Both the position numbers and the translations under genes were made by a program. From positions 248,001 to 312,000 of the forward strand of contig NW_026251717.1 of the NCBI RefSeq assembly GCF_025024155.1: a DNA stretch of 64,000 bases, in the 5' to 3' direction. This DNA comes from Gamsiella multidivaricata (lineage: Eukaryota; Mortierellomycota; Mortierellomycetes; Mortierellales; Mortierellaceae). This document shows positions 3,244 through 48,110 of the stretch, piece after piece; position 1 is the stretch's first letter; every line of letters starts with the position of its first letter. Under the pieces are notes generated by a model. It saw only the letters and a program-made list of their open reading frames with translations. It was not told the origin of the DNA and ran no database searches.

Positions 3244-6200
3244 CGCTCCGTCGACTGAACCTCCTCCTTCGGTGTCCATCTAGCCTAGTCCGCCCCTTCT
3301 CCCATCCTATCCAATCCACGTCCGGCTCCGCCCTCCTTCCAGACGTTCACCTTCCCCTCACACCTCTCTCCACGACTTGACACGTTTCTTCCGCCACCGC
3401 TACCCTTGCACCACTAACGCCTCCCACCATAAGAAATGGCCTTCGACATCCGCGACGAAGACGAGCCTCATGATGAGTTCGACGAGTATGAGGAAGTGAA
3501 GCAGCCGGAACGTCCAAAGTTCTATCGCCGCAAAAGTTCTGGATGTTCTGCATCCCCAACGCGATCATGCGCTCATCATTGCCGTGGTGCTGGCGCTCTA
3601 TGTGATTATGCCCAAGATTGCACAGGGTTCATGAACAAGGCCACCATCAACTTTTCGCAGCTTGTAAGTCCATTGCCTGCTCCTACTGTCTTTCTGTCTG
3701 TTTCTATCCAATTCAATATACTTTTCTGCGCCTCTCGGCACTTTTCTGCGCTTCCCACCATATACCCCCCACATCTCTGCTTCATCTTTCACACCGCGAA
3801 AAAAACACACATGTAGTACATACGCTCCTGTGTGCACTGCTAGGTCGTACGCGGCTGTTGGCTGAAACGTATCTGACGCATCCAACGCATCCAACGCATT
3901 TAACGCATCTAACGCATTTAATACATCTGTGCCTGCATGTACCGTGCATGCCATGAATCTGCTCTGTAACTCTACAGGACATCACCGACCCCTCGCCCAC
4001 ATCCATGAACGTGGTGATGCAGGGCGAGATGCGCAACACCGGACCCTTCCATGCCGACATCAGCTTCCCTGGGACTGTCACTGTCTCCTGGAACGGCATT
4101 GTGCTCGGCACTACCGAGATCCCTGGCACCAGCACTGCTTCGTACGTATCTGTGCAATACCAGCTGTGTATCTGCTGAATGATTTGCGGGCCGATGATGC
4201 TCTCGGTCTGCTCGCTGTATCTCACCCTGTATTCTCTCTATCTCTCTATCCCTCGTTATCTCGCTATCTCGCTACCTTGCTGCTTTGCTATCTCGCTCCC
4301 GGCTTCTCCACTCGTCCCTCCCGACAGTGGCGGTCATGGCGACTTGAACCTGCAGAGCAGTGTCACCATCACTAACTCGAGCGGCTTCGCAGAGTTCTCG
4401 AGCTACATGCTCAATGCCGAGTCCTTTGTCTGGCACCTCGAGGGTAAGCTGAACGTCAAGGCTCTCGGCCACACCGTCAAGGACCTCGACCTGAACAAGG
4501 ACATCACTGTGAAAGGTAAGCACCCGTATGGACATGCATCCGAGCAGCTACTCGAGCATGCACTCAAGCATGCACTCGAGCATGCATCCGAGCTGCTATC
4601 TGTGCACTCTGTTATTGTCTCTTCACGCAGACGTGCATGTTCTTGACATCTGCCACGATGCCTAACCCTCAATTGTCTGCACCTCCTTTTGACCTCCCCA
4701 GCGTTCAACGGTCTGCCCGGTACAACTATCCAAAAGTTCTCCCTCCCCGGCGACGACCCCTCCGGCAACGGCATCATCATCGAGATCGACACCCTCGTCA
4801 CCAACCCCTCCGCCATCCAGATGTACATGGGCAGCTTGACCTTGGCCATCTCGTATAAGAACACGGTCATGGGATATGTCACTGCCAACAACCTGACCAT
4901 GGCCCGCGGCCCGCAGACGCTGAGCATGAAGGGCGTGCTGATCCCCCAGGCCACGGTCGAGGGTCTCGCAGACACCTCGGAGATGATGTCCCGCTACATC
5001 GGCAATGCCGTGACGGACACCATTGCCACTGGCTACGAGGTCAAGCCTGACGGCGTCAACTCGGTCGACTGGCTGTCTGCGGCAATCAAGAACCTGAAGC
5101 TGACGGTCCCGCTCCAGAGCCCGACGCCACTGCAGCTGATCAAAGCCCTGAACCTCGGGGCCCTGGGTCTGACCTTCACTCCTCCGACCGCGTACCAACC
5201 CGTGACGACCTCGACCGGTGTCCTGGCCAACTACACGCTCCCCGACGGCTTTGGGTTCAACATCCAGTTCACTCAGGTCGCCAACGAGCTGGCCCTCAGC
5301 CGCAACAACATCACCATTGCCAACCTCAACTCGTCCTACAACCCCTCGACCTCGAACATGGCTGCGGGCACCCTCAACTTTAACCTGCTGGCCACTCCTC
5401 TGCTCGTCCCCGAGGACGCCCACCAGGCCTTTCAGGAGTTCAACCGCGACCTGACTGTCGGCGCCAATCTGCCGTTCAATGTCGTGGGCAAGGCCTCGGT
5501 CTTTGCCAACACCTCCATCGGTGTCGTCAACCTCGTCAACATCCCGCTCAACGCCACGACCGAGCTTAGCGGTCTGCAGAGCCTTGCCAATCCTGCACCG
5601 ACCATCACGGCCCTCCAGGTGGTGTCCGGCACCGCCACGGACCTGACCATGGCCATCACCGTCGTGATCGTGAACCCGTCGTCGATCTCGCTGAATGCGG
5701 GTGACATTGTGCTTGACCTGATGTACAAGGGTGTCCGTCTCGGAACAGTGACCATGCCAAACCTGGCTATTGTCCCCGGCGCCAACACTGTCGAGGCCTC
5801 GTCCACGATCAATCCCGCAGCCTCACCCGAGGGCATGGAGCTGCTGACCCTGTACACCAGCGGCGCCGGTGCCGAGGTCAGCATTGCAGGCACCCCCACC
5901 AGCACCACTGTCGATTCGCTGACCCTGGCCTTTGGCGCACTCAACATCGGCACACAGATGCCTGGGCTGCAGTCCAAGTTGCTGGCAGGAGCCTCGCTGG
6001 TTGTGCTCGACACCACCCTCGCCAACGGCATCGCCCAGACCGTGGTCACGGTCAACAACCCGTTCGTCCCAGCCATGAGCATCCTGTCCATCGACTCCAA
6101 GATCACCTACAACGGCGCCTCGCTCGGCACCGTGGTGTCAACCTTCAGCTCGCCCCCCGTCATCCCCGGCACTGGTCAGGGCACCATCACTGCCAGCCTC

Positions 6201-8905
6201 GCCATGAACACCGACCCACACGACCTCGTCACCCTGATCCGCGCCCAGGCCGTCAAGAACGGCATCAACACCGACGCCTTTGACGGCCTGCTCTCGCTCC
6301 AGCAGGGCGGCAACCCTCCCGCCAGCCTCTTCGACGGCTTCAACGTCGCCGACTTCACCATCAAGGCCATGGCCGGCCTCAGCGTCGACATCGAGATGAC
6401 CACCACCGTCAAGCTGGGCGACTACCAGGTCACGATCCCCTACACCCAGACAGGCGTCCCCACCGCCACGGACCAGACCATCCTCAAGCTCATCCCCATC
6501 GTCGGCACCCCCATCGCCCAGCTCCTCGTCGAGCGCTCCGTCCTCGGCTTTGACTCTATCAAGATCCTCAACCCCACCGACACCAACTTCCAGACCGACA
6601 TTATCGGTGCCATCACCGACACTGGCCCACTGGATGCCCAGATCCAGTTCCCCAACCCCGTCACCATCTCGTTTGACGGCAAGCCAATTGGAACAATGAT
6701 GATGCCGACGGTGGACGCGGTCGCCAACAAGGGTGCGCCACTGAACCTGGCTGCCGTGCCCTTCATCATCACCGACCTCGCAGCCTTCACAGACTTCAAT
6801 GTCTATGCGCTCAACAACGAGAAGTTCGACTGGACGATCTCGACCGAGGGCCTGGTTGTCAATGCCATGGGCACCTCGCTCCCCGGCGTGACCATGACCA
6901 AGAAGGTGACGCTCGACGGCTTCAACAAGCTGCAGGGCCTGGAGCTGTCGAGCTACATCATCAACACCATCGACGCCGACGGTCTGCACATGGTCATCAG
7001 CGCCTCGCTCGCCAACCCCTCGACCATCGGCCTGACCATCCCGGTCTCGAACTTCGACACTGGCTTCCACGGCAAGGTGCTCGGACCAGCTGTGGCCGAG
7101 GGCCTGACGCTGCTCCCGCACGGCAACTCGAGCTTTGCACTGAAGGCGACCATCTCGTCAGCCAACGGTGACCTGAGGCCATACCTGGCTGCCATCTTCC
7201 AGAACGCGCTCGGCGGTACTGCGACACCGCTCGATGCTACCGGAACGGGCGCACCCGGCCTCTCATGGCTGGATGCGGCAATCAAGTCGCTGGTGCTGCA
7301 TACCAGCCTCCCACCTCTGACGGAGCCGCCAATCGAGTCGGTGGCCATCGACGCCATGTCCATGGACTTTTCCTGCGACTCGTGCGTGTGGTCTCCGACC
7401 GCCATCTCGACCATCACGGCCAAGACGAACCTCCCCTTCGCAAACGGTGCGCCGATTGTCCAGCTCAGCCAGAACGTCGAGATCCTGGACAAGGATGGTC
7501 AAGTGGTCGGAGTCCTCAGCACTCCCTATGCTCCAGCCACCACATCCGGCAACACGGTGACATCCACGGCCCCTTCTGCGCCACTGGTTGTTGCTGATGG
7601 TTCGCACGAGATCTACTCTGCCTTCATCGGAGACCTCAACATGGCCACGACCTATGAGCTTGGGCTTCGCGGAACAGCCGACTCGATCCTGGATCTCGGC
7701 GCACTTGGTCAGGTCGAAGTCAAGGGCATCAAGTTGGACGTCAAGACATCGATGGCTGGCCTCCAAGGACTGCAGAAGATCGAATATGTTACCAATCTGG
7801 GCTACGACTTTATTGGGGGTATCACTCCACGCTCCTGGTTAACATTGTCAATCCCAGCAAGCTGACCCTCAATATTGGAGATTTGACTTTGAAGATGGGC
7901 AAAGACACCACAGATGCAGGCTTTGCTGGCTACTCGCAAATCACCGACTTGATATTGGTCCCTGGAGACAATCTGATCCAGGCTGTGGCCGCTATCGATA
8001 ATACATTACCTGGTGGATCTGAACTGGCGACTGAACTCTTCTACCAAAACACGACGGTCACCATGTACGGCTTCCCTGGGGTCAGCAAGAACCCTGCCCT
8101 GGCTGCTGGATTGCAAAGTCTTGTTACTCAGACTGTCATCCCCGCGGGGTTGGAAACGTTCCAGAACGCTCCTCCCTACAGCGCGACCTGGAAGATCAAA
8201 GTTCCGCCAACTGCAGTAGACGATGGCATGATCGAGATCACGACTACCTTCAGCAACCCTTATTTCTCCTTGCCACTCCACATGCTCCTTCCTGTCTCCG
8301 ATCCAGCTGTGTACACGGGCACGGATCCCAGCCACATTGAGGTTCCCATGGGCAACGGCGGCACCCCAAACCGAATATTCGATTTCCTGAACAACTTCAA
8401 GTTCGATCTGGCTCCCAATTCCTCAACCACCATCACGATGCAGCTGCAGTTATCGACGATCGGTATGAACGGAACACCTAGGAGCTACGTGGAGGGGGTG
8501 GTTGAGCAATCCAAATCCGGAACCGTTCCGATCTACGTGATGCTTTTACCTGAATGTACCCTGGGCAAAGACCCCCGTAAGTTCCAAGGCTACTGGGCTT
8601 CGGACACTATCTACCCTGACCTCACCTTCTTGACGCTTGAGACCGGACCGGACTTTGCGCTGATTCTTGACTGGTTCGATAAGAAGTACCCACCAATGCC
8701 TTTGATCGCAACCAACCCAGTCTCAGGGGTTACTTCGCCAACGGTGTCCCCCAGCGTAGTCTCGCCCACGTCGACCGTTACTGCCCCGACGGACCCCTCC
8801 TCGACGACCCCATCCACGACTGCGTCAGCAGCACCCAATCCCGAGCCAACGCCGACGACGACAACGACAACGACAACGACAGTAACACCGTCTCCAACAC
8901 CAGAA
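3244..8905 (+). repeat. Duplicated block, copy A
   Basis: This 5.66-kb block matches 25412-31079 from the leader (around TTCGCTCCGTCGAC) to the Thr-rich codons near the 3' end. By eye, 3640-7820 is the same in both copies apart from one deleted base in intron 1. The leader and exon 1 of this copy show only one-base deletions and one substitution. The last ~900 bases carry several true substitutions (for example near 8040, 8220, 8733 and 8750). Sequence outside the block does not align, so the unit is one gene with its leader, not a larger segment. Confidence 0.9.
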
Positions 8906-17518: not shown

Positions 17519-17633
17519 ATACAGTAAAGCGATCGCCTTCGGATATGTTCATGATAGTTTTTTTATTTCTATTTGTATGGCTTCGTTCTTGTCGTCCTAT
17601 CTTCACTACAGTATCTGTCTACTAGAAATCACC

Positions 17634-17640
<7 letters not shown>

Positions 17641-17675
<35 letters not shown>
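17641..17675. repeat. 35-base A homopolymer
   Basis: An uninterrupted A run separates the two convergent broken genes. It lies just beyond the 3' end of the Fanzor-like frame (T run on that strand). It could be a slipped simple repeat or the scar of a poly(A) insertion; nothing flanking it decides. Confidence 0.9.
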
Positions 17676-17677
<2 letters not shown>

Positions 17678-17734
17678 GGTGTTCATGCACGCTATTTTGC
17701 ATGTTGAATATACAAATTTTGAAAGAGAGTTTGA

Positions 17735-20700
17735 TGATATGGACTTGGTAGATCGGTACTGGTTCTGGATTTGCGACAGAGATACGGTGACAATGAGTCG
17801 ACATCGCGATCAAAGTACATTCGACAGCTTTGACGGCATTTTGACCGCCTCTTGTCGGACCCCAAGAACGCCATACACAGATCACGAGGGCACCGAGCAC
17901 TGGTGTAGTATCCATGCATCCCGATCACAATGTGTTCCATAGCCTTTGTCTATCAGCAGTGTCAAGGAACAAATAGACAGATGAGAAAAAGTTGCATTGC
18001 AAATGAGAGATGGTGTGCCACCCTTTTTTTTCATATCTTGCTGACAAATTTCTTCTCAAGGGCGCAATGCTTGCTTGGCAGGCCAGTTTGCGAATCAAAA
18101 GAGCCCAACCCCATCGCAAACATCACTTTTACACCATCTTGCGAGCTCAGCGGTGACCAACAAAGTCCTTACTGACGGCAAGGTCAAGCAAGGCCGCAAC
18201 TGCGTAGTCATACGTTGCCTGTTGAGCCTTTTGAAGATCCCAGCGCTTCCTTAGCATCCATTGACTGTTGTAAAAGTTAAAAAGGCGGACTCTCATGGTG
18301 GTTGCGGCGGTGCCGTCCGTGCCAGGCGCCTCCAGATACGTCAGATACTCCTCGATCTTCTCCGCGGTAAATGAGGGCAGTATTACCTCAAGGACATCAA
18401 TGCGTGCCGCGGCCTTCTGCTTTTCTAGGAGACACTTGAAGAGCATATAAGGCCTATAGAGAAATGCCCTGTGGATCCGTAAAGACTCTCTTTTCGTGGG
18501 TAAGGCGGCGGGGTCGATTCTTGTCGCTGTCATTGTGTAAACCTCACCCGGGTCAATGCCGATGGCCACAGTATCGCCTGGTGGACAAGCACCAGGTGAG
18601 TTGAAGCACACCTCCACGTTTTCCAGAACCTTTGATCTTCGCCTCTAGTTGGTGGTGTTGCGTATGACATCGATCGTATCTGCGCCTGACGCTGGACCAG
18701 ATGAGGCTTCTGAGCCGGGTAAGGACGAAGTAGTCGCAGTAGGGTCTGCGGGTGACAGTTGATGTATCGGCAGCCTCTGCTGCTTTGAACTTTCTGGCAG
18801 CGAAAACGGGAGCGTGATGCGTTTCTTCTTGACGGATCCTGCCACTACTGCGGCCGGATCTCTGCCAGGGTCGTCCCCTCCACTTTCAAGAAACGCGTCG
18901 TCGAGGTCATAGTCACCGTTAACATCGTAGAACAGGGTCAAATCATCGTCGTCGTCGTCATGTTCTCCTTCATCATCGTCATCACCCTTAATGTTTTGGC
19001 GGGATGCTCGGCGTCGCGCTGTCGTTGTGCCATGCGTAAGAAGATGCAACACTAGTCCGTTCGTGCAGATGATGCCCCGAAACTTGAACCTTGTGTAGTG
19101 CTGTCTGTCACTCTGAAACGAAACCTTCCTGTAATACCGTCAAAGAGCGTTGCCGGGTCCAGTCAGTATAGCAGCTTCTCGATGAGGATCCCTTTCTTGC
19201 CGACGACCTTGGCTTCTGCAGCGCTGGCTGTTGTATCGCTCAGCATTCGGACTATAATCGGCCGCGTCTTATCGCTTGTATAGAATAAATGGACAAGGTT
19301 TGCCTCTGACAGGAACACGAAGCCAGCTGCAAACTTTGCCTTGACAAAGTCTGCAAACATGCGCTTCGCAGTATTCTTTTCGAAGAAGTAGTCGATCGGA
19401 TTGACAGTTCCGGGGCGCTCTTAGTTCTCGGAAAACTATTAAAGAAAGTTGAAGAGCTAATGGTCAACACTAGTGCTCCGAAAAGCAAGGAACATAACGG
19501 CTACATCTTGCACACTCTTTAATATACCTTTGCGCCATATTAATGGACTCGCACTGCATTGTAGACTGCCGCAACAGCAAGCCTCGAGGTCATCGAAGGG
19601 AACATCTCTGGTTCATGTCGGCGAAAGGGGACAAAGCCGGCGAGCGTCGTGTACGCATCAAAGACACGTCGGGCATGGGTGGCTGTTGGTTGTGCTTGTG
19701 CTTGTGCCTGTACTTGTGGTTGCGGGACAGCAGGGACCAATGGCGTATTTCGAGTGCTCATCCTGCGCGCAGGGGCAACCGATACTTGAACAACCTGAGA
19801 ATCTCGTCCTTCTTGACTACTGCAGAAGAGTGTGTTGAGTGCAAAGTAGAAGGCCTTGCTGTCGAGAATGTCTGCAATGTCCTCCTTCCGCTGTGCCACA
19901 TCTGTCGCTGTGTCTTTAGAACGAACAAGCCGCGCGATATCCAGGGCAATGGCCTCGTACATATGCATCTGGATCTTGTTAAGGAATGTAGCCGTTGAAC
20001 GTAGCCTGTCTGAAAGGAGCTTGCTTTCTGCAACCAAGATCGAATCCATTGGCTTTATGTTGGCCTGGATATTCCCTACAGTGAGTGCCTTGGCTATATG
20101 CAGCTTGCGGAGGCGGCGGTCCGCGGCAGTTGCAGAAGCGCGCCTTGGGTTCGATGGGTCGGCGGAGCCCACCCCTTTCCGTTTCCTCGGCAGTGCCCCC
20201 TTCTTCCTCTTTTTCTTGTTCTTTTTCTTCACGACTGCCTTCGGAGTCTTGACACGGGGCTTTGCTTTTGGCTGTGGGCGATCGTGAGGTACGGCAGTCG
20301 AGAAGTCAATCGATTGTCGTGGTAGGATCGATTTCTTGTCTGAAAAGATTGGCCGGAACTGATTACGCTTTGAGTTCCTCGCAACGCCGAAGGGAACCGC
20401 ACTAGTAAGTGCACGCATGCATCGCCATGTAAAAGGTGTTAGAGAACTTGATGTCTGTACAACACGTGCGTGAATGAAGCGGTGTCGCACTTAAATTACC
20501 TTCTACTCGCATGCTGATATGCAGCGACGGCAAATCGCTGCAGCTTGAGGTGCCGGAACTGCGGTGATGCAATGTTGAAATCAAAGCTGAGCATGTCCTC
20601 ATCGGCAGCCTCATCTCCTGGCTGCAGTTGGAGCGCTTTCTCCTCGAGACCCAAAAAGATGAGTTCCGATGGCTTGAATCGGGTCTGGTCGATAGAGTTG

Positions 20701-21885
20701 CGGGTCTTGATGGCTGCCATGAATATGTAAGCACGAGCATCTGGCGGATATCAGGCGACTGGGGAAGAGCGCGGATGATCTCCAGGTTGCAAATTATTCC
20801 AAGGCCGCAAATGTTCTCGGTATAGTCGTTCTTGGACACGATACCCAGCTGCGTCACATAGTCTGTGTTGGGTGAAAGGTATGACTGTGTTCAGAATCAA
20901 TGAGAACAAGAGAGGAATCTTTAATTACAGCGACCAAGCAATTACTTATTGCTTGGTGGCTTAAGTTAATATCTGGACTCAGTCCAGCTATCGCACACAG
21001 AGGCAGTGTGTAAAATAGGCGACATTCCATAATGGGAACCTGGAGTGCATTGGTAACACTCTCTTTGGTGAACGCATAGACCAGGCTGTGGAAGATCGGC
21101 CGCAAAACCTTGGTGATCGACGGATATATCAACTGATCGGAGTCGGCTGATACCATGAAGCGGTCGGTTGCCCGGGCCAGTCTGCGTGCAGACAGAAAAC
21201 CCCTTTTCTCGTAAGGCATCCCGGAGTGTCAGCTTGGCAGCCGTATCAAATCTGTATACATCATGAAGGCCCTTCTTGATCTTCGTCACCATGCTCTTCG
21301 GGGCCCTGTCGCTTACTACGACATGATCGGTCGACACTTGGCAACGCGCGCGAGCGTTACACAGAAACAAATAAGATATCCATAGTTCCGTACCTGTTTG
21401 TCCCCCATCTAGTAACTTGAATACACTCCTGCGCTTCCTCTGACTTTGCTTCCTAGAAACCATATCACCCTCCCTTGATTTGTTCCGCCTTGCTTAGAAA
21501 AGGTCATTCTGACTCTGAATAAGCATAGGTTCATTACAGATCCATTGGCTGTTCGACGACTTCGCGCCCATGACTTTCAAGTTCGCCTTCAACGTCTTGA
21601 GGTCCGCTGTCAGTCTGTTCCTTCGCCTGATATGCTCATTCCGCTCCTGCTGGGATGGGACGCCATCGATGTGAATCGAACATTGCGCAGGGGTAAAGTC
21701 CTCCTCCAAACGCGCTGCCATCGTAAAATCGACAGTTCGGACCTTGCTTGGGTCGTAATCATCCGTTATCTAGCGAGCGAGGGGTCCATAAAACGCATCG
21801 AAGAGATCAACCTCAACAGCTTGGTTCTGATAATCCTGGGGATCCGCGGCAACTAGATCCAAACCGCGCTTCTTCAGAGTATTAT
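17735..21885 (-). pseudogene. Fanzor-like (eukaryotic TnpB-type) RNA-guided nuclease gene, frame-broken
   Basis: The C-terminal half shows the TnpB/Fanzor order on the minus strand. RuvC-I is AIGIDPGEVYTMTAT (Asp codon 18554-18552). Next is a helical region with PSFTAEKIEEYLTYL and FYNSQWMLRKRWDLQKA (to ~18180), then a RuvC-II-like MFAMGLGSF with GLPSKHCALEKKF (~18125-18030). A zinc ribbon follows, GYYTSARCPR then RRSKCRQSC (~17915-17820), leading directly into RuvC-III YFDRDVDS (17817-17794) and SVANPEP. Upstream, 21885-18645 holds a long N-terminal region with several plausible introns. It includes LTLRDALREKGF, SIDQTRFKPSELIFLGL, a Lys-rich basic patch near 20220 and a 316-codon frame ending at 19540. 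At least six frame changes or stops occur, so no complete protein is encoded here. Known Fanzors are RNA-guided DNA nucleases carried by transposons. I recognise the family from motifs only; the long N-terminus could include a separate gene. Confidence 0.65.
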
Positions 21886-22742
21886 TTGAAGCCTCTTATG
21901 CCCATCCTATGATCACTGTGGTGGATTGATAGCTTAGCAGTGTTAGTGAAACCTTCTCGTAAGGACGCTGAAGATATGGAAGAGTAGGCTTAGAGGGTAC
22001 ATTACCTTTTCTACAGGCGTATGGTATCTAGCGTGAAGGTGTATATGGATGGTAAACTATGGGCGAAGAGCGGTGAGGTGAAAGGATGACGAACGAAAGG
22101 TAAAGAAAAAGGTGCTGTTGTGGTGTCGCGAATAGAAAAGTGTGACGAAGAGGGCTGTGAAGTGTGTGACATAATGCTTATAGGCGAGAAGTAATGTCTG
22201 CTTGTCCACAATAAAAAAGGCTTTGATAAGGAGTCGCCACACTGATGGATGCTGGCCTCTTGACACGAAGCGCGATCATTGTTGTACAAGTAGCTTTGCC
22301 ACGGCCTGACACAGATATACACCCACATCGCCACCATCGCTGTTTCCAACGTACGCGAGGCAGGCGCAAATCCAGGTCGCTGGCGATGCAACGCAGGGTA
22401 GGGAAATCAGTCAAGTAACGCGGTCAACCTTCAAAGTTTGAAGGACGAAATCCTATGGGAACTTTTGTTCGACGGTGGTCTGGGATGAGTACCAAGAGTT
22501 CCAAGAAGCCAGAAAGCAGCTAGGACGCGGACTCAAATTGGAGAGGAAAACAAAAGGCCGCACTCGATCATAGCAGGACCTCCTAGTAACACCATCGAGG
22601 AGGCAATACGCAAATTCGAGGGTGAGAAACAAAAAAAACGGCTTTGACGCGATCAACAAGTTGGTGTCACGGATAGCACCAGAGTCCTCGCCAAAAAGTC
22701 GTAACCCCACCCTTTGAGCCCACAAAAAGTCATAACCCTTAT

Positions 22743-25411: not shown

Positions 25412-28400
25412 TTTCGCTCCGTCGACTGAACCTCCTCCTTTGGTGTCCATCTAGCCCTAGTCCGCCCCTTCTCCCATCCTATCCAAATCCACGTCCGGCT
25501 CCGCCCTCCTTCCAGACGTTCACCTTCCCCCTCACACCTCTCCTCCACGACTTGACACGTTTCCTTCCGCCACCGCCTACCCTTGCACCACTAACGCCTC
25601 CCACCATAAGAAATGGCCTTCGACATCCGCGACGAAGACGAGCCTCATGATGAGTTCGACGAGTATGAGGAAGTGAAGCAGCCGGAACGTCCAAAGTTCT
25701 ATCGCCGCAAAAAGTTCTGGATGTTCTGCATCCCCAACGCGATCATTGCGCTCATCATTGCCGTGGTGCTGGCGCTCTATGTGATTATGCCCAAGATTGC
25801 ACAGGGTCTCATGAACAAGGCCACCATCAACTTTTCGCAGCTTGTAAGTCCATTGCCTGCTCCTACTGTCTTTCTGTCTGTTTCTATCCAATTCAATATA
25901 CTTTTCTGCGCCTCTCGGCACTTTTCTGCGCTTCCCACCATATACCCCCACACATCTCTGCTTCATCTTTCACACCGCGAAAAAAACACACATGTAGTAC
26001 ATACGCTCCTGTGTGCACTGCTAGGTCGTACGCGGCTGTTGGCTGAAACGTATCTGACGCATCCAACGCATCCAACGCATTTAACGCATCTAACGCATTT
26101 AATACATCTGTGCCTGCATGTACCGTGCATGCCATGAATCTGCTCTGTAACTCTACAGGACATCACCGACCCCTCGCCCACATCCATGAACGTGGTGATG
26201 CAGGGCGAGATGCGCAACACCGGACCCTTCCATGCCGACATCAGCTTCCCTGGGACTGTCACTGTCTCCTGGAACGGCATTGTGCTCGGCACTACCGAGA
26301 TCCCTGGCACCAGCACTGCTTCGTACGTATCTGTGCAATACCAGCTGTGTATCTGCTGAATGATTTGCGGGCCGATGATGCTCTCGGTCTGCTCGCTGTA
26401 TCTCACCCTGTATTCTCTCTATCTCTCTATCCCTCGTTATCTCGCTATCTCGCTACCTTGCTGCTTTGCTATCTCGCTCCCGGCTTCTCCACTCGTCCCT
26501 CCCGACAGTGGCGGTCATGGCGACTTGAACCTGCAGAGCAGTGTCACCATCACTAACTCGAGCGGCTTCGCAGAGTTCTCGAGCTACATGCTCAATGCCG
26601 AGTCCTTTGTCTGGCACCTCGAGGGTAAGCTGAACGTCAAGGCTCTCGGCCACACCGTCAAGGACCTCGACCTGAACAAGGACATCACTGTGAAAGGTAA
26701 GCACCCGTATGGACATGCATCCGAGCAGCTACTCGAGCATGCACTCAAGCATGCACTCGAGCATGCATCCGAGCTGCTATCTGTGCACTCTGTTATTGTC
26801 TCTTCACGCAGACGTGCATGTTCTTGACATCTGCCACGATGCCTAACCCTCAATTGTCTGCACCTCCTTTTGACCTCCCCAGCGTTCAACGGTCTGCCCG
26901 GTACAACTATCCAAAAGTTCTCCCTCCCCGGCGACGACCCCTCCGGCAACGGCATCATCATCGAGATCGACACCCTCGTCACCAACCCCTCCGCCATCCA
27001 GATGTACATGGGCAGCTTGACCTTGGCCATCTCGTATAAGAACACGGTCATGGGATATGTCACTGCCAACAACCTGACCATGGCCCGCGGCCCGCAGACG
27101 CTGAGCATGAAGGGCGTGCTGATCCCCCAGGCCACGGTCGAGGGTCTCGCAGACACCTCGGAGATGATGTCCCGCTACATCGGCAATGCCGTGACGGACA
27201 CCATTGCCACTGGCTACGAGGTCAAGCCTGACGGCGTCAACTCGGTCGACTGGCTGTCTGCGGCAATCAAGAACCTGAAGCTGACGGTCCCGCTCCAGAG
27301 CCCGACGCCACTGCAGCTGATCAAAGCCCTGAACCTCGGGGCCCTGGGTCTGACCTTCACTCCTCCGACCGCGTACCAACCCGTGACGACCTCGACCGGT
27401 GTCCTGGCCAACTACACGCTCCCCGACGGCTTTGGGTTCAACATCCAGTTCACTCAGGTCGCCAACGAGCTGGCCCTCAGCCGCAACAACATCACCATTG
27501 CCAACCTCAACTCGTCCTACAACCCCTCGACCTCGAACATGGCTGCGGGCACCCTCAACTTTAACCTGCTGGCCACTCCTCTGCTCGTCCCCGAGGACGC
27601 CCACCAGGCCTTTCAGGAGTTCAACCGCGACCTGACTGTCGGCGCCAATCTGCCGTTCAATGTCGTGGGCAAGGCCTCGGTCTTTGCCAACACCTCCATC
27701 GGTGTCGTCAACCTCGTCAACATCCCGCTCAACGCCACGACCGAGCTTAGCGGTCTGCAGAGCCTTGCCAATCCTGCACCGACCATCACGGCCCTCCAGG
27801 TGGTGTCCGGCACCGCCACGGACCTGACCATGGCCATCACCGTCGTGATCGTGAACCCGTCGTCGATCTCGCTGAATGCGGGTGACATTGTGCTTGACCT
27901 GATGTACAAGGGTGTCCGTCTCGGAACAGTGACCATGCCAAACCTGGCTATTGTCCCCGGCGCCAACACTGTCGAGGCCTCGTCCACGATCAATCCCGCA
28001 GCCTCACCCGAGGGCATGGAGCTGCTGACCCTGTACACCAGCGGCGCCGGTGCCGAGGTCAGCATTGCAGGCACCCCCACCAGCACCACTGTCGATTCGC
28101 TGACCCTGGCCTTTGGCGCACTCAACATCGGCACACAGATGCCTGGGCTGCAGTCCAAGTTGCTGGCAGGAGCCTCGCTGGTTGTGCTCGACACCACCCT
28201 CGCCAACGGCATCGCCCAGACCGTGGTCACGGTCAACAACCCGTTCGTCCCAGCCATGAGCATCCTGTCCATCGACTCCAAGATCACCTACAACGGCGCC
28301 TCGCTCGGCACCGTGGTGTCAACCTTCAGCTCGCCCCCCGTCATCCCCGGCACTGGTCAGGGCACCATCACTGCCAGCCTCGCCATGAACACCGACCCAC

Positions 28401-31041
28401 ACGACCTCGTCACCCTGATCCGCGCCCAGGCCGTCAAGAACGGCATCAACACCGACGCCTTTGACGGCCTGCTCTCGCTCCAGCAGGGCGGCAACCCTCC
28501 CGCCAGCCTCTTCGACGGCTTCAACGTCGCCGACTTCACCATCAAGGCCATGGCCGGCCTCAGCGTCGACATCGAGATGACCACCACCGTCAAGCTGGGC
28601 GACTACCAGGTCACGATCCCCTACACCCAGACAGGCGTCCCCACCGCCACGGACCAGACCATCCTCAAGCTCATCCCCATCGTCGGCACCCCCATCGCCC
28701 AGCTCCTCGTCGAGCGCTCCGTCCTCGGCTTTGACTCTATCAAGATCCTCAACCCCACCGACACCAACTTCCAGACCGACATTATCGGTGCCATCACCGA
28801 CACTGGCCCACTGGATGCCCAGATCCAGTTCCCCAACCCCGTCACCATCTCGTTTGACGGCAAGCCAATTGGAACAATGATGATGCCGACGGTGGACGCG
28901 GTCGCCAACAAGGGTGCGCCACTGAACCTGGCTGCCGTGCCCTTCATCATCACCGACCTCGCAGCCTTCACAGACTTCAATGTCTATGCGCTCAACAACG
29001 AGAAGTTCGACTGGACGATCTCGACCGAGGGCCTGGTTGTCAATGCCATGGGCACCTCGCTCCCCGGCGTGACCATGACCAAGAAGGTGACGCTCGACGG
29101 CTTCAACAAGCTGCAGGGCCTGGAGCTGTCGAGCTACATCATCAACACCATCGACGCCGACGGTCTGCACATGGTCATCAGCGCCTCGCTCGCCAACCCC
29201 TCGACCATCGGCCTGACCATCCCGGTCTCGAACTTCGACACTGGCTTCCACGGCAAGGTGCTCGGACCAGCTGTGGCCGAGGGCCTGACGCTGCTCCCGC
29301 ACGGCAACTCGAGCTTTGCACTGAAGGCGACCATCTCGTCAGCCAACGGTGACCTGAGGCCATACCTGGCTGCCATCTTCCAGAACGCGCTCGGCGGTAC
29401 TGCGACACCGCTCGATGCTACCGGAACGGGCGCACCCGGCCTCTCATGGCTGGATGCGGCAATCAAGTCGCTGGTGCTGCATACCAGCCTCCCACCTCTG
29501 ACGGAGCCGCCAATCGAGTCGGTGGCCATCGACGCCATGTCCATGGACTTTTCCTGCGACTCGTGCGTGTGGTCTCCGACCGCCATCTCGACCATCACGG
29601 CCAAGACGAACCTCCCCTTCGCAAACGGTGCGCCGATTGTCCAGCTCAGCCAGAACGTCGAGATCCTGGACAAGGATGGTCAAGTGGTCGGAGTCCTCAG
29701 CACTCCCTATGCTCCAGCCACCACATCCGGCAACACGGTGACATCCACGGCCCCTTCTGCGCCACTGGTTGTTGCTGATGGTTCGCACGAGATCTACTCT
29801 GCCTTCATCGGAGACCTCAACATGGCCACGACCTATGAGCTTGGGCTTCGCGGAACAGCCGACTCGATCCTGGATCTCGGCGCACTTGGTCAGGTCGAAG
29901 TCAAGGGCATCAAGTTGGACGTCAAGACATCGATGGCTGGCCTCCAAGGACTGCAGAAGATCGAATATGTTACCAATCTGGGCTACGACTTTATTGGGGG
30001 TATCACCTCCACGCTCCTGGTTAACATTGTCAATCCCAGCAAGCTGACCCTCAATATTGGAGATTTGACTTTGAAGATGGGCAAAGACACCACAGATGCA
30101 GGCTTTGCTGGCTACTCGCAAATCACCGACTTGATATTGGTCCCTGGAGACAATCTGATCCAGGCTGTGGCCGCTATCGATAATACATTACCTGGTGGAT
30201 CTGAACTGGCGACTGAACTCTCCTACCAAAACACGACGGTCACCATGTACGGCTTCCCTGGGGTCAGCAAGAACCCTGCCCTGGCTGCTGGATTGCAAAG
30301 TCTTGTTACTCAGACTGTCATCCCCGCGGGGTTGGAAACGTTCCAGAACGCTCCTCCCTACAGCGCGACCTGGAAGATCAAAGTTCCGCCAACTGCAGTA
30401 AACGATGGCATGATCGAGATCACGACTACCTTCAGCAACCCTTATTTCTCCTTGCCACTCCACATGCTCCTTCCTGTCTCCGATCCAGCTGTGTACACGG
30501 GCACGGATCCCAGCCACATTGAGGTTCCCATGGGCAACGGCGGCACCCCAAACCGAATATTCGATTTCCTGAACAACTTCAAGTTCGATCTGGCTCCCAA
30601 TTCCTCAACCACCATCACGATGCAGCTGCAGTTATCGACGATCGGTATGAACGGAACACCTAGGAGCTACGTGGAGGGGGTGGTTGAGCAATCCAAATCC
30701 GGAACCGTTCCGATCTACGTGATGCTTTTACCTGAATGTACCCTGGGCAAAGACCCCCGTAAGTTCCAAGGCTACTGGGCTTCGGACACTATCTACCCTG
30801 ACCTCACCTTCTTGACGCTTGAGACCGGACCGGACTTTGCGCTGATTCTTGACTGGTTCGATAAGAAGTACCCACCAATGCCTTTGATCGCAACCAACCC
30901 AGTCTCAGGGGTTATTTCGCCAACGGTGTCCCCCAGCGTAGTCTTGCCCACGTCGACCGTTACTGCCCCGACGGACTCCTCCTCGACGACCCCATCTACG
31001 ACTGCGTCAGCAGCACCCAGTTCCGAGCCAACGCCGACAAT

Positions 31042-41806: not shown

Positions 41807-42179
41807 GTCTCTTTCAGCTGGCTATTACTGCCGCCGGAAATATCGCCCTTCAAGCAACAATCAAATACCACTAAACCGGCAACTGCATACTTTTGTTGCA
41901 GCCCTCGCTACTTCTCAGCATAACGACAATAATGCTCGGACGACGACTCTAGTGGACTAAATTATCACCATTGAAGTGACGATAAGCGAAGGGCAATAAA
42001 AACATCGAATAGCGCTTCTTTAAGCAAAGAACTGCCTCCTTTACAGATAGAGAGGGCTGAGTCGAGCCTATCCCAGTGATTCGACTAAAAATGGAAGTTG
42101 CATGTTTCCAGCCGATTCATTTAAAGAGGGCTGGGTCCAAGCCTACGCGATGTCGTACTCAGGCTGTAAACGAGCCTAA
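41807..42179. other. Intergenic, upstream of the ERMARD-like gene and the tandem array
   Basis: No gene is seen. GAGGGCTGAGTCGAGCCTA at about 42050 and GAGGGCTGGGTCCAAGCCTA at about 42126 form a loose direct repeat. Confidence 0.5.
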
Positions 42180-42719
42180 CCAACTGCGAGTGTTGCGTGC
42201 ATTCATGTGTCAAGAAACCTAGCCTGTACTCCTCCTTCCGTTCTGTTTACACCAGGGCTGAGGATAACAGACATGAATGTATGTTTTTCCTGGACAGCCC
42301 TCGCTTCTCGCGCATATATGCTTAGAGATAATGTTTATTCCTGTGCCACATTTTGATCCTTCGTGCACTCATCTCTCCAGCTGTGGAAACTGGGGGATAT
42401 GAACGTGTGCGCAACTGCTTGTCTGTACAGTCTCTCGACAGCCCTGAGCTTGCTTCTCAAACACCTTCGTGCGCTCGAAGTTACTATCAGCGGAATCAAT
42501 GCACACAATCGCCTTGTGTAAAAGAATTCTTTCTCAGCATGCTTTACCTCGCTGGACCCTCTCCTCAAACATACTGCTCCACAATGGGTTGTCTCGATGT
42601 CAAGGACACGAGGGGACCCTGTTGACAGTTCACACAGCTACAGATTATCCTGCATCTAAGGCCAACTTGCACCCCAGTTTAGGGTCGACCAAAGCTTTGC
42701 GTCTTGATGACTTGTTGAC

Positions 42720-42772
42720 TTGTTATTGTTGTTGTTGTTGTTGTTGTTGACCTGCTGTTGTTGGTGTTGTTG
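42720..42772. repeat. (TGT)n tract, unit 1
   Basis: A TGT-rich microsatellite about 420-470 bases upstream of the first ML gene. Equivalent tracts lie at about 44794-44830 and 46869-46897 in units 2 and 3 and differ in length. The poly-Cys frames they create are not genes. Confidence 0.85.
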
Positions 42773-43069
42773 TTATCTCGCCTTCTTTCATGCTCAACAT
42801 GCCAGTTACTTTATGCAGTGGATACATGATTTACACATTGCGCCAACCGTTTTCCTTTTGGACACCTGTCAGCGAATATTACACAAGGAGTCGGGGCACT
42901 CAGTAGACCATTTGATACGCGTCGAGCCCTGTGGAGTATGCGCTACACAAAGAAGACCTGTGGGCGTAAAATAAGCACAGCACATACATGGCCAATATTA
43001 TTCTCCAATGCAGATGGCCATGTCGAATGCGTTCTCGGCTCGAAGCTTCCGTGTATCCTTCTTTTTCCT

Positions 43070-43077
43070 TATAAAAA
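43070..43077 (+). promoter_or_regulatory. TATA box, ML gene 1
   Basis: TATAAAAA lies 118-125 bases upstream of the ATG at 43195, followed by a pyrimidine-rich leader (TTCTTTCTTTTC, CCATCCGCCTCCTC). The same layout recurs in the other two units. Confidence 0.6.
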
Positions 43078-43194
43078 GAACAAGGAGCCTTCTTTCTTTT
43101 CTTTTTCTGTTATCCATCCGCCTCCTCTTCACAACCCTGCCCTCCCAAGCTCCTTCCCAAGAAAAATCAAGAAAAATCAACCAAATCTCCGACC

Positions 43195-43746
43195 ATGAGA
43201 TTCACCGCTATCGCTGCCCTTCTCCTTGCCGCCGTCGCAAGCGCCCAGTCTCCTCCCTTCTCGAACTGCGCGCCCGGTGCCACGGATATGACGGTGACCA
43301 GCTTCAGCTTGAGCCCCGATCCTCCATGTGTCGATCAAACTTACTGTAGCAATGTCACCGGAACCCTCAACACCCCTATCATCGACGGTGCCAAGTTGGC
43401 GATCACTGGCAGGTATGGTGGACGCGTCATTTACACCGACAACCATGACCTGTGCACCCTCCTTGCCGCCTCTGGACACCCTTGCCCTGTTTCCGTCACC
43501 ACCACCAGTCTCTCTCTCTGCGTTCTCTTGAAGCCTAATTCCCCCCTTAATGTAAGCCGGAAACACGATACTAAGTGCTTATAGGTGTTTTTCTTTTTTT
43601 TTTTTATTGACGCGCTTCTGACCATCTTTTCTTTTTATCGATGACTTCAATAGTACCCCATGGCGCTGACTATCCAGGCCAACAACGGCAACGGCAATGT
43701 GCTCTTCTGCCAGGTCGCCACGGTCGTTCCCCGGGCGTGCTCTTAA
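43195..43746 (+). CDS. Secreted ML-domain (MD-2/NPC2-like) lipid-binding protein 1
   Basis: Two exons, 43195-43551 and 43654-43746, joined in phase 0; 149 aa. A signal peptide (MRFTAIAALLLAAVASAQ) is followed by a single ML domain. It has the family's lipid-binding beta-sandwich features: FSLSPDPPC, CSNVTGTL, GAKLAITGRYGGRVIYTDNH, GHPCPV, and a final strand LTIQANNGNGNVLFC ending in a Cys. Eight Cys in the mature protein fit four disulphides. The length is typical for the family, which binds sterols or phospholipids; the ligand here is unknown. This is the most diverged of the three in the N-terminal 20 mature residues (PPFSNCAPGATD). Confidence 0.85.
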
Positions 43747-45126
43747 ATCAGTCGAGCAGGCTCACACTCTCCACGGTTCTCCAAAACATCCCCTTCTCTT
43801 CTTATTCCTTCTTTTTAAAAGAAAAGCATTTGGCAGTAGGCGAGGGCGATTTTTGTTTTCTAATATTTACTGCTGATTTATCTGGCAACAACAGAAAATA
43901 AATTATTATTGGAGGTCAAACCATATATCTGTCTCTCGACTCGGGTGATGCCTGGACGCGTATGACACGCGGGGGTTGGAAGAAAAGGAAGAAGTAGGAG
44001 GTGGATCATAAATGGAAGAGAAATGTACAACTTCTTGATTAGCTGCTAATACTAATCCTTGCGAGACAGAAAAAGAAAAGAAAAGATGCGCTGTTGATTT
44101 GTGACGCCATATTCCTGCGCGTCGTGCATTTAACCGCGGTCGGTCGCTGTGTCACACAGCTGCCTGTTCATTCTTCCATCTGTACCGCTTTCATGACCTG
44201 GTTAAAAGGGCTTCGGCGCCATTGACAATGAATTCCTGCTGCTTTCCAAACCAACTGCGAGCACTACGTGCATCCATGTGTCAAGAAACCTAGCCTGTAC
44301 CCCTCCTTCCGTTCTGTTTACACCAGGGCTGAGGATAACAGACATGAATGTATGTTTTTCCTGGACAGCCCTCGCTTCTCGCGCATATATGCTTAGAGAT
44401 AATGTTTATTCCTGTGCCACATTTTGATCCTTCGTGCACTCATCTCTCCAGCTGTGGAAACTGGGGGATATGAACGTGTGCGCAACTGCTTGTCTGTACA
44501 GTCTCTCGACAGCCCTGAGCTTGCTTCTCAAACACCTTCGTGCGCTCGAAGTTACTATCAGCGGAATCAATGCACACAATCGCCTTGTGTAAAAGAATTC
44601 TTTCTCAGCATGCTTTACCTCGCTGGACCCTCTCCTCAAACATACTGCTCCACAATGGGTTGTCTCAATGTCAAGGACACGAAGGGACTCTGTTGACCGT
44701 TCGAATAGCTGCAAATTATCCTGCATCTAAGGCCAACTTGCACCCCAGTTTAGGGTCGACCAAAGCTTTGCGTCTTGTTGACTTGTTGACCTGTTGTTAT
44801 TGTTGTTATTGTTGTTGTTGTTGTTGCTGTTCTCTCGCCTTCTTTCCTGCTCAACATGTCAGTTACTTTATGCAGTGGATACATGATTTACACATTGCGC
44901 CAACCGTTTTCCTTTTGGACACCTGTCAGCGAATATTACACAAGGAGTCGGGGCACTCAGTAGACCATTTGATACGCGTCGAGTCCTGTGGAGTATGCGC
45001 TACACAAAGAAGACCTGTGGGCGTAAAATAAGCACAGCACATACATGGCCAATATTATTCTCCAATGCAGATGGCCATGTCGAATGCGTTCTCGGCTCGA
45101 AGCTTCCGTGTATCCTTCTTTTTCCT

Positions 45127-45134
45127 TATAAAAA
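45127..45134 (+). promoter_or_regulatory. TATA box, ML gene 2
   Basis: TATAAAAA 118-125 bases upstream of the ATG at 45252, in sequence almost identical to unit 1. Confidence 0.6.
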
Positions 45135-45251
45135 GAACAAGGAGCCTTCTTTCTTTTCTTTTTCTGTTATCCATCCGCCTCCTCTTCACAACCCTGCCCT
45201 CCCAAGCTCTTTCCCAAGAAAAATCAAGAAAAATCAACCAAATCTCCGACC

Positions 45252-45824
45252 ATGAGATTCACCGCTATCGCTGCCCTTCTCCTTGCCGCCGTCGCAAGCG
45301 CCCAGTCTTCTTCCTTCTCGAAGTGCGTCATTTACCCGAACAATACGGCCTATCCCACGGAATTGACGGTGACCAGCCTTAGCTTGAACCCCGACCCTCC
45401 GTGTATTGGCCAAAATTACTGTATCAATGTCACCGGAACCCTCAGCACCCCTATCATCAACGGCGCCAAGTTGGCGATCTCTGGCAGATATGGTGGACGC
45501 GTCATTTACACCGATAACCAGGACCTGTGCACCGTCCTCGCCGCCTCTGGACATCCCTGCCCTGTTCCCATCACCACCACCAGTCTCTCTCTCTGCGTTC
45601 TCATGATGACTTATACCCCTCCTGTAAGTCGGAAACATAATACTAAGTGCTTATGGGGGGGGATTATTTTAAACAAAGCTATTGACGCGCTTCTGACCAT
45701 CTTATCTTTTTGTCGACGACTTTAATAGATTCCTCGCAATATGACTATCGAGGTCACCAACGGCAACGGCAATCGGCTCTTCTGCCAGGCCACCATGAAC
45801 CTCGTTCCCAAGAAGTGCACTTAA
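45252..45824 (+). CDS. Secreted ML-domain protein 2
   Basis: Exons 45252-45623 and 45729-45824, phase 0; 155 aa. The signal peptide matches gene 1, with the same eight Cys. It differs by a longer N-terminal segment after the first Cys (SKCVIYPNNTAYPTEL) and a changed last exon (IPRNMTIEVTNGNGNRLFC, ending KKCT). Domain landmarks: LSLNPDPPC, CINVTGTLSTPIINGAKLAI, GGRVIYTDNQDLC. Probably secreted; ligand unknown. Confidence 0.85.
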
Positions 45825-47198
45825 ATCAATTGAGCAGGCTCGCCCTCTCCACGGTTCTCCAAAACATCCCCCTTCTCTTCTTATCACTTCTTTTTAAAAG
45901 AAAAGCCTTTGGCAGTGGGGAGGGCGATTTTTGTTTTCTAGTATTTATTGCAGATTTATCTGGCAACAACAAAAAATAAATTATTATTGGAGGTCAAACC
46001 ATATATCTGTCTCTCGACTCGGGCGATGCCTGGACGCGTATGACATGCGGCGGTTGGAAGAAAAGGAAGAAGTAGGAGGTGGGTCATGAAGGGAAGAGAA
46101 ATGTACAACTTCTTGATCAGCTGCTAATACTAACCCTCGCGAGACAGAAAAGATGCGCTGTTGATTTATGACGCCATATTCCTGCGCGTCGTGTATTTAA
46201 CCGCGGTCGGTCGCTGTGTTACACAGCTGTCTGTTCGTTTTTCCATCTGTACCGCTTTGGTCACATAGCATGACTGGTTAAAAGGGCTTTGGCGCCCTTG
46301 ACAATGAATTCCTTGCTGCTTTCCAAACCAAATACGAGTACTGTATGCACTCCATGTGTCAAGAAACCTAGCCTGTACTCCTCCCTTCGTTTCGTTTACA
46401 CCAGGACTGAGGATAACAGACCTGAATGTATGTTTCTCTTGGACAGCCCTCGCTTCTCGTGTATATATGCTTAGAGATACTGTTTATTCTTGTGCCACAT
46501 TTTGATCCTTTGTGCACTCATCTCTCCAGCTGTGGAAACTGGGGGATATGAACGTGTACGCAACTGCTTGTCTGTACAGTCCCTCAACAGCCCTGAGCTT
46601 GCTTTACAAACAGCTTCGTGCACCCGAAGTTACTATCAGTGGAATCAATGCACACGATCGCCTTGTGTGGACGAACTCTTTCTCAGCATGCTTTACCTCG
46701 CTGCAGCCTCTCCTCAGACATCCTGCTCCACAATGGGTTGTCTCGATACCAAGGGCAAGAGGAGACTCTGTTGACTATTCGCACAGCTACAGAGTATCCT
46801 GCAACTAAGGCCAGCTAGCACCCCAGTTTAGGGTCGACCAAAGCTCTGCGACTTGTTGACTTGTTGACCTGTTGTTGTTGTTGTTGTTGTTGTTATTACC
46901 GTTCTCTCGCCTTCTTTCATGCTCAACATGTCAGTTACTTTATGCGGTGGATACAAGATGTACACATTGCGCCAACCGTTTTTCATTTGGGCACCTGTCA
47001 GCGAATATTACACAAGGAGTCGGGGCACTCAGTGGACCATTCGATACGCGTCGAGTCCTGTGGAGTATGCGCTACACAAAGAAGACCTGTGGGCGTAAAC
47101 TAAGCACAGCAGACACATGGCCAATATTACTCTCCAATGCAGATGACCATGTCCAATGCGTTCTCGGCTCGAAGCTTCCGTGTATCCTTCTTTTTCCT

Positions 47199-47206
47199 TA
47201 TATGAA
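47199..47206 (+). promoter_or_regulatory. TATA-like site, ML gene 3
   Basis: TATATGAA takes the place of the TATAAAAA of units 1 and 2, 107-114 bases upstream of the ATG at 47313. The weaker match may mean different expression of this copy. Confidence 0.45.
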
Positions 47207-47312
47207 GAGCAAGGACCTTTCTTCCTTTTCTTTTTCTGTTATCCATCTTCCTCCTCTTCACCATCCAGCCCTCCCAAGCTCCTTCTCGAAAAAAGCAACC
47301 AAGTCTCCGACC

Positions 47313-47883
47313 ATGAGATTCACCGCCATCGCTGCCCTTCTCCTTGCCGCCGTCGCAAGCGCCCAGTCTTCTTCCTTCTCGAACTGCGTGACCGCTGCCG
47401 CGGACATGACGGTGACCAGCTTCAGCTTGAGCCCTGATCCTGTGTGTGTCGGCCAAAATTACTGTATCAATGTCACCGGAACCCTCAGCGCCCCTGTCGT
47501 CACCGGCGCCAAGTTGGTGGTCACTGGCAGGTGGAGTGGACACATCGTTTACACTGACAACCAGGACTTTTGCACCGTCCTCGCCGCCTCTGGACGTCCC
47601 TGCCCTGTTCCCATCACCACCACCAGTCTCTCTCTCTGCGTTCTCATGAAGCCTACTTATCCCGCTAATGTAAGTCGGAAACATGATACTAAGTGCCTAT
47701 GAGTGTTTATATATCATTGTTTTTTTATTCTAAAGCAATGATATTGACGCGCTTCTGATCATCTTATCTTTTTGTCGACGACTTCAATAGGTCCCCCTGG
47801 CGCTGACTATCCTGGCCACCAACGGCAACGGCAATGTGCTCTTCTGTCAGGCCGCCACGGTCATTCCCCAGAATTGCTCTTAA
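47313..47883 (+). CDS. Secreted ML-domain protein 3
   Basis: Exons 47313-47669 and 47791-47883, phase 0; 149 aa. The signal peptide is the same as in copies 1 and 2. It keeps the eight Cys (FSNCVT, DPVCVG, NYCIN, DFCTV, RPCPV, SLCVL, LFCQ, QNCS). Substitutions cluster in the mature part: ITGRYGGRVIYTDN of gene 1 becomes VTGRWSGHIVYTDN. Likely a functional secreted paralogue. Confidence 0.85.
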
Positions 47884-48110
47884 ATCAATTGAGCAGGCTC
47901 GCACTCTCCACGGTTCTTCAAAACATCCCTCCTTGTTCTCATTCCCTTATTTTTTTTTCTTTTTAAAAGAAAAGCTTTTGGCAATAAGTGAAAGCGATTT
48001 TTGATTTCCAATATTTATTGCAGGTTTATCTGGCAACAGCAAAAAATAAATTATTTTTGGAGATCAAACCATATATCTGTCTCTCGACTCGAACGAATGT
48101 TTGGATGTGT

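Follow-up and report, generated by a model that had tools for sequence, protein, structure and literature searches.

The 64,000-nucleotide stretch of Gamsiella multidivaricata DNA analysed here (contig NW_026251717.1, positions 248,001 to 312,000; hereafter the window) carries on its minus strand a decayed copy of a repeated element. Its gene was read as belonging to a mobile element and as encoding an XPG/FEN1/EXO1-family nuclease and a Fanzor-type RuvC/zinc-ribbon nuclease in one predicted protein, the latter making a guided cut and the former then trimming it; a probability of about 0.5 was assigned to this reading as a whole. The XPG-Fanzor fusion architecture, taken by itself, is very probable.

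The Fanzor half and the N-terminal domain

When the window genome (37.5 Mb, 180 contigs) was queried with the 4.5-kb region, 12 more long copies and two shorter ones (C25 and C50) were obtained at 85-90% identity. The gene model was built by alignment of 13 sister copies with the window copy (14 copies), the fragment C50 being excluded. In the least broken copy, C166 (1174 codons, one internal stop), the four exons measure 1040, 886, 1365 and 234 nt and the three intervening introns 98, 92 and 106 nt; the introns are GT-AG in most copies. Compared with C166, the window copy has five in-frame stops and seven frame-shifting indels, one of which is a 164-bp insert, as well as a 237-bp in-frame insert. 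The initial annotation, made from the sequence alone, had described a broken Fanzor-like gene at this place. The decay is real, but part of the apparent breakage was due to the three introns, and the explanation that all of the frame breaks represented decay was rejected.

All of the motifs named in that annotation were found on the minus strand, at the place and in the order it had given: RuvC-I AIGIDPG (Asp codon at 18554), WDLQKA, YYTSARCP..CRQSC (17913-17826) and RuvC-III FDRD (Asp codon at 17805). The HEYYTS Glu, which we take to be the catalytic Glu in Fanzors, is gone from the window copy, in which the third zinc Cys is also displaced by one residue. The RuvC-I Asp, the four Cys residues and the RuvC-III Asp were retained in 12 of the 13 sister copies, with C25 lacking most of the region, and the HEYYTS Glu in 11 of 13. 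The Fanzor motif given in the available text of PMC3627910 is D-X(125-275)-[TS][TS]-X-X-C4 zinc finger-X(5-50)-RD, and C166 fits it in that form (Asp 929; TS 1113-1114; C1117, C1122, C1136 and C1139; RD 1145-1146). A Fanzor/TnpB profile match in the C-terminal half, expected from the initial annotation, was obtained for members of the family but not for the window copy alone, whose zinc-ribbon frame scored 17.8 bits (E = 0.0037), below the Pfam PF07282 cut-off of 26.3 bits. Scores above the cut-off were recorded for the same exon of C139 (35.9 bits) and for the related proteins P0005 (31.2), P0009 (30.4), P0011 (29.5) and P0001 (29.2). The complete motif was found by pattern search in eight of the 12 related proteins described below; in P0003 the RuvC-I Asp is replaced by Glu, and a segment is absent from each of P0004, P0007 and P0008. 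Long homologues retain the RuvC aspartates and the zinc ribbon. A chance motif match was rejected on copy number, profiles and structure, and a minimal TnpB was also rejected.

The long, unusual N-terminus with a basic patch that had been remarked on in the initial annotation was borne out, with the Lys/Arg patch falling in exon 2. As judged from predicted structure, the N-terminal ~300 residues are an XPG/FEN1/EXO1-family nuclease domain. The predicted fold of exon 1 of the sister copy C139 was the XPG/FEN1/EXO1 fold by structural comparison, with ~16% identity to EXO1/FEN1 over the structural alignment. FEN1 and EXO1 matched the predicted model of P0001 far better than did Rat1 (E = 1.8e-3) and Xrn1 (E = 3.0e-3). 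An NDYxxNIxGLG-type segment was present in the domain. Furthermore, a nine-sequence profile matched nine XPG-family sequences; its match to the Fanzor SpuFz (E = 0.65) is too weak to count alone.

Ten active-site positions, comprising the active-site acidic residues, the N-terminal Gly and the arch Lys/Arg, were scored in what we take to be the FEN1 residue numbering. All ten were invariant in each of the six complete domains (P0001, P0005, P0009, P0002, P0011 and C175), which are 28-76% identical (P = 1.9e-10). Ten rows were aligned; the four outside this count were C139 and C126 (one deviation each), P0003 (two positions absent) and P0010 (N-terminal part absent). The HxDG..K..R spacing of the FEN1-type Lys/Arg pair was present in P0001, P0002, P0003, P0005, P0009 and P0011; the other six relatives gave no match and, by their starts or lengths, lack the region. 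The pooled ratio of nonsynonymous to synonymous substitution rates (dN/dS) among the sister copies, pseudogene branches included, was 0.45 in exon 1 and 0.41 in the RuvC part.

Linkage of the two domains

Four exons join the XPG domain in frame to the RuvC domain and zinc ribbon. When the whole spliced protein was compared with 5.8 billion proteins, four matches were obtained, the best of which was P0001 from Mortierella alpina (1186 aa, 40% identity, 100% coverage). Further searches by profile and by region raised the number of related proteins to 12, of which 11 (all but P0009) came from M. alpina or M. antarctica; because the protein searches scored just the ~8000 candidates sharing most words, they may have overlooked relatives elsewhere. 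In P0001, P0005, P0009, P0011 and P0002, a single chain contains both the XPG active site and the RuvC-zinc ribbon set. None of the 14 aligned copies of the family is the intact paralogue that the initial annotation had proposed to seek in the source genome, but P0001, P0005, P0002 and P0011 are single, uninterrupted Mortierella proteins in public records.

It is very improbable that the XPG and Fanzor parts are two adjacent genes of the element rather than one protein. The exon 1 frame does meet a stop at the start of intron 1, where an unspliced RNA would end. However, the four Mortierella proteins hold both parts in single chains, relatives align unbroken over the predicted intron-1 junction, and the segment VPxYVAxxSKRNQFRPIF, shared by P0001 and C166, directly follows that junction; the GT and AG of intron 1 are both retained in 12 of the 14 copies. 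Because of the single-chain proteins and the unbroken alignment over the junction, the fusion does not rest on predicted splicing alone.

The window genome gave 109 PF07282 matches and 92 matches to the XPG part of C166; the former is a high number of Fanzor-type matches for a genome of this size. All of these rows were entered into a pairing count, from which the 25 rows of the window's family were removed to leave 67 XPG matches. A zinc-ribbon match lay at most 5.5 kb downstream on the same strand for 38 of the 67 (expected, 0.54), and 31 of these 38 pairs were spaced 2.7-3.4 kb. In the control, a zinc ribbon was found upstream or on the other strand for 4 of the 67. A wider count added 11 rows, 71 of 160 matches (those at places already among the PF07282 matches being mostly left out) and one more from further searches. 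It paired 45 of 68 XPG loci, with 45 of the 115 Fanzor loci outside the window's family, where 0.52 was expected, the mirror arrangement gave one and the opposite strand four. Adjacency by chance was rejected by the pairing count together with the mirror and opposite-strand controls. With the window's family included, 51 of the 109 zinc-ribbon matches had an XPG match upstream. Pfam XPG_I was above its cut-off at nine places in the genome, five of which lie ~3 kb upstream of a same-strand Fanzor zinc ribbon. The XPG parts of the other genome matches are 23-44% identical to that of C166; the XPG-Fanzor association is therefore old or was made more than once.

The element and other features of the window

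The gene of the window copy starts at 21905 and element sequence extends to 22637 (Table 1). This copy is truncated and internally deleted on its 5' side, and ends on its 3' side with ...GACAGATACTGTA at 17607. The 3' terminus ...GGTAGACAGATACTGTA is common to most of the tiled copies and conserved to the last bases, after which the flanks diverge, with the exception of C171 and C139. The 5' boundary ATTTGCACC... was readable in three copies (C171, C166 and C25), and the full element is ~6.26 kb long in C171. C171 and C139 match past the element on the 3' side too (97.6% over nearly 7 kb in all); because the match extends beyond the 3' end, they look like one insertion that was later duplicated with its flank. 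A non-autonomous derivative at C99:392661 retains ~1 kb of 5' leader sequence together with the final 75 bp and has lost the whole Fanzor gene. Both of the exon 1 inserts in the window copy are repeats present at other places in the genome and resemble miniature inverted-repeat transposable elements (MITEs).

Terminal inverted repeats would be expected if the carrier were a Tc1/mariner element. A search for the 3'-terminal 19 bp in inverted orientation gave no match at up to four mismatches in the 14 tiles and the window, among which only the C25 tile reaches a 5' end, and a scan of the genome at up to three mismatches placed none at the 5' end of C171 or of C166; shorter or poorer repeats could remain. 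No shared target motif was seen by eye in the 3' flanks, and just three 5' junctions were readable. The 5' leader of C166 (L076:5386-6201) contains an open frame of 272 aa that includes an acidic stretch and matches no family above cut-off; neither a transposase nor a TnpA-type recombinase, which would be expected of an IS607/IS200-type carrier, was recognised in this one 5' open reading frame, for which the Pfam matches were all below cut-off. No relatives in viral contigs were found among 209 pattern matches.

Table 1. Positions in the window of the element copy and the parts of its gene.
Feature	Position	Strand	Basis
Element copy as far as recognised	17607..22637	-	blastn against 14 tiled sister copies; conserved 3' end; 5' end read in C171, C166 and C25
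Exon 1: predicted XPG/FEN1-family nuclease domain (about residues 1-300), decayed in the window	20500..21905	-	alignment to C166 gene model; fold of C139 exon 1
237-bp insert in exon 1; parts recur elsewhere in genome	21304..21540	-	genome search, C166 alignment
164-bp insert in exon 1, MITE-like, recurs elsewhere in genome	20873..21036	-	genome search, C166 alignment
Predicted intron 1, 98 nt, GT..AG	20402..20499	-	copy alignment; relatives align continuously over junction
Exon 2: basic linker (Lys/Arg patch 20247-20169) and following region	19528..20401	-	copy alignment
Predicted intron 2, 92 nt, GT..AG	19436..19527	-	copy alignment
Exon 3: region through RuvC-I (Asp codon 18554), acidic loop, WDLQKA helix	18037..19435	-	copy alignment
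Predicted intron 3, donor not GT in window copy	17950..18036	-	copy alignment
Exon 4: HE(G)YYTS segment, zinc ribbon (TNB), RuvC-III Asp (17805)	17732..17949	-	Pfam PF07282, below cut-off in window, above in C139
3' untranslated end to element terminus, expected omegaRNA location; long T run in window copy	17607..17731	-	alignment

Elsewhere in the window, the two ends of a GC-rich segment (3765-8124), compared as 300-nt blocks, recur 22.18 kb further on (25946-30306) at 100% identity, a pattern that suggests a duplicated gene of ~4.4 kb; the first copy contains a 1072-aa open frame. Tandem units of ~2.07 kb occupy 42175-47953, with most blocks in three copies at 68-100% identity to the reference block, and each of the three units has a short secreted-looking protein starting MRFTAIAALLLAAVASAQ.

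Proposed activity and comparison with known systems

In the proposed mechanism, an RNA made at the 3' end of the element would lead the intact enzyme to a matching site and the RuvC domain would cut it; the XPG domain would then cut or trim flaps, R-loop junctions or fresh 5' strands. RNA guidance and double-strand cutting by RuvC would be expected by analogy with the known Fanzor family, and 5'-flap or 5'-exonuclease action by analogy with FEN1 and EXO1. As to purpose, RuvC may re-cut the empty site once the element is lost, and the XPG module may resect the ends to 3' overhangs and so direct repair towards homologous copying, by which the element would be restored. End processing towards homologous copying was favoured because re-cutting of an empty site benefits the element only where a copy serves as the template for repair. 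We put tentatively, at somewhat less than even odds, the proposal that the Mortierella-type fungal Fanzor lineage is a natural two-nuclease machine, in which RuvC would make an RNA-guided break and the FEN1/EXO1-type part would resect or trim it in place, the element programming both the cut and the repair route.

Several observations weigh against the reading of the gene as a guided nuclease joined to an end-trimming one. Its repair-steering purpose is more doubtful than the activities taken from the two families. All 14 aligned copies of the window's family, the window copy included, are disrupted. Five of the 13 sister copies (C171, C139, C126, C25 and C135) deviate at one or more of the XPG active-site positions, in a further copy (C93) the first seven of the ten are absent, and part of the XPG domain is missing in P0003. 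When P0001 alone was compared with PDB sequences, none of the four matches at E≤1 was XPG or Fanzor, and it gave no XPG family in Pfam; Pfam XPG families (XPG_N and XPG_I) were below cut-off in C139, P0002 and P0005 and were not listed for P0009-P0012. The match of the P0001 model to the solved SpuFz (9cey_P; E = 2.0e-4, template modelling score 0.23 by target length) is supportive only, because the RuvC half of the model is of low confidence. An XPG match upstream was lacking for 58 of the 109 zinc-ribbon matches, which may be of a different group or decayed, and the XPG module may not be universal among these Fanzors. Furthermore, the linked pairs are not independent events, because copies of the same families are included. 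The conserved 3' non-coding RNA anticipated in the initial annotation has so far found no support: the 3' end of C166 folded no better than shuffles (z = -0.21), giving no omegaRNA signal, and Rfam gave no match in the window.

Other roles for the XPG domain were weighed. It is unlikely, though the best placed of these alternatives, that the domain belongs to the transposition machinery and processes flaps or ends at excision or insertion, with the RuvC part an ordinary Fanzor. Some eukaryotic DNA transposons (Academ) carry an XPG-type nuclease, a subject on which a literature search gave nothing among the titles listed; because no transposase was recognised in the 5' open reading frame, the element may depend on its single large gene for end processing. 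However, the 5' side yielded no inverted match to the terminal 19 bp, a target-site duplication was not clear at the three readable 5' junctions, and FEN1/EXO1-type enzymes do not alone insert DNA. Action on RNA, with the domain trimming or binding either the guide RNA or the mRNA of the Fanzor in the manner of its distant 5'-3' exoribonuclease relatives, is slightly less probable again. The weaker matches of the P0001 model to Rat1 and Xrn1 are consistent with it, and TnpB-type guide RNAs need processing, but the matches to FEN1 and EXO1 are far stronger, and the FEN1-type Lys/Arg pair is retained at the same spacing from the HxDG Asp. We consider it improbable that the domain is an inactive scaffold in a protein that is functionally an ordinary Fanzor. 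Although conservation is lower in the XPG domain than in the RuvC-zinc ribbon part, and some XPG-family proteins (the Mkt1 type) are held to be non-catalytic, an inert domain is disfavoured because the active site is invariant in the complete domains.

To our knowledge, Fanzors are single RuvC nucleases; a large group of them in which one protein also carries a repair-type nuclease, apparently intact, would represent a new effector architecture. Since the XPG module can be inactivated separately, how elements use DNA repair to persist would become directly testable, and natural uninterrupted relatives are on offer in which RNA-guided cutting with built-in end processing could be studied. An XPG-type nuclease inside a mobile element is common to this family and to Academ DNA transposons, which encode a transposase and a helicase of their own and are not known to carry a Fanzor. 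With the XPG/FEN1/EXO1/Rad2 nucleases the family shares the predicted fold, the NDYxxNIxGLG-type segment, the metal-binding acidic residues and the Lys/Arg pair; those nucleases are single cellular repair genes, whereas here the domain is fused upstream of a Fanzor in a multicopy mobile-element gene.

The Fanzor1 proteins SpuFz1, GtFz1 and PpFz1 and the eukaryotic TnpB homologues have in common with the family the RuvC-I Asp, HEYxTS, the C4 zinc ribbon, the RuvC-III RD and a dispersed element, as far as described in the available text of PMC3627910, PMC10432273 and PMC11423790; the XPG/FEN1-type domain in the ~300 N-terminal residues is the window family's feature. The available text of the same papers describes variable or extended N-termini and a RuvC insertion in PpFz1 that binds cyclophilin, and the word XPG is absent from their main text. 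Within the literature collection searched, no paper was found that combined Fanzor with XPG or Fanzor with Mortierella, and the two papers that mention both TnpB and flap endonuclease were on other subjects, judging by title and start of abstract. The nearest functional parallel is the engineered Cas9-EXO1 'exonuclease editor', which was reported, in the available text of PMC11107001, to raise homology-directed repair. Both pair an RNA-guided nuclease (predicted to be so here) with an EXO1-type one; the editor is man-made with Cas9, whereas the pairing in the window family is natural and with a Fanzor. If the two-nuclease reading is true, the family would be a natural counterpart of the engineered editors.

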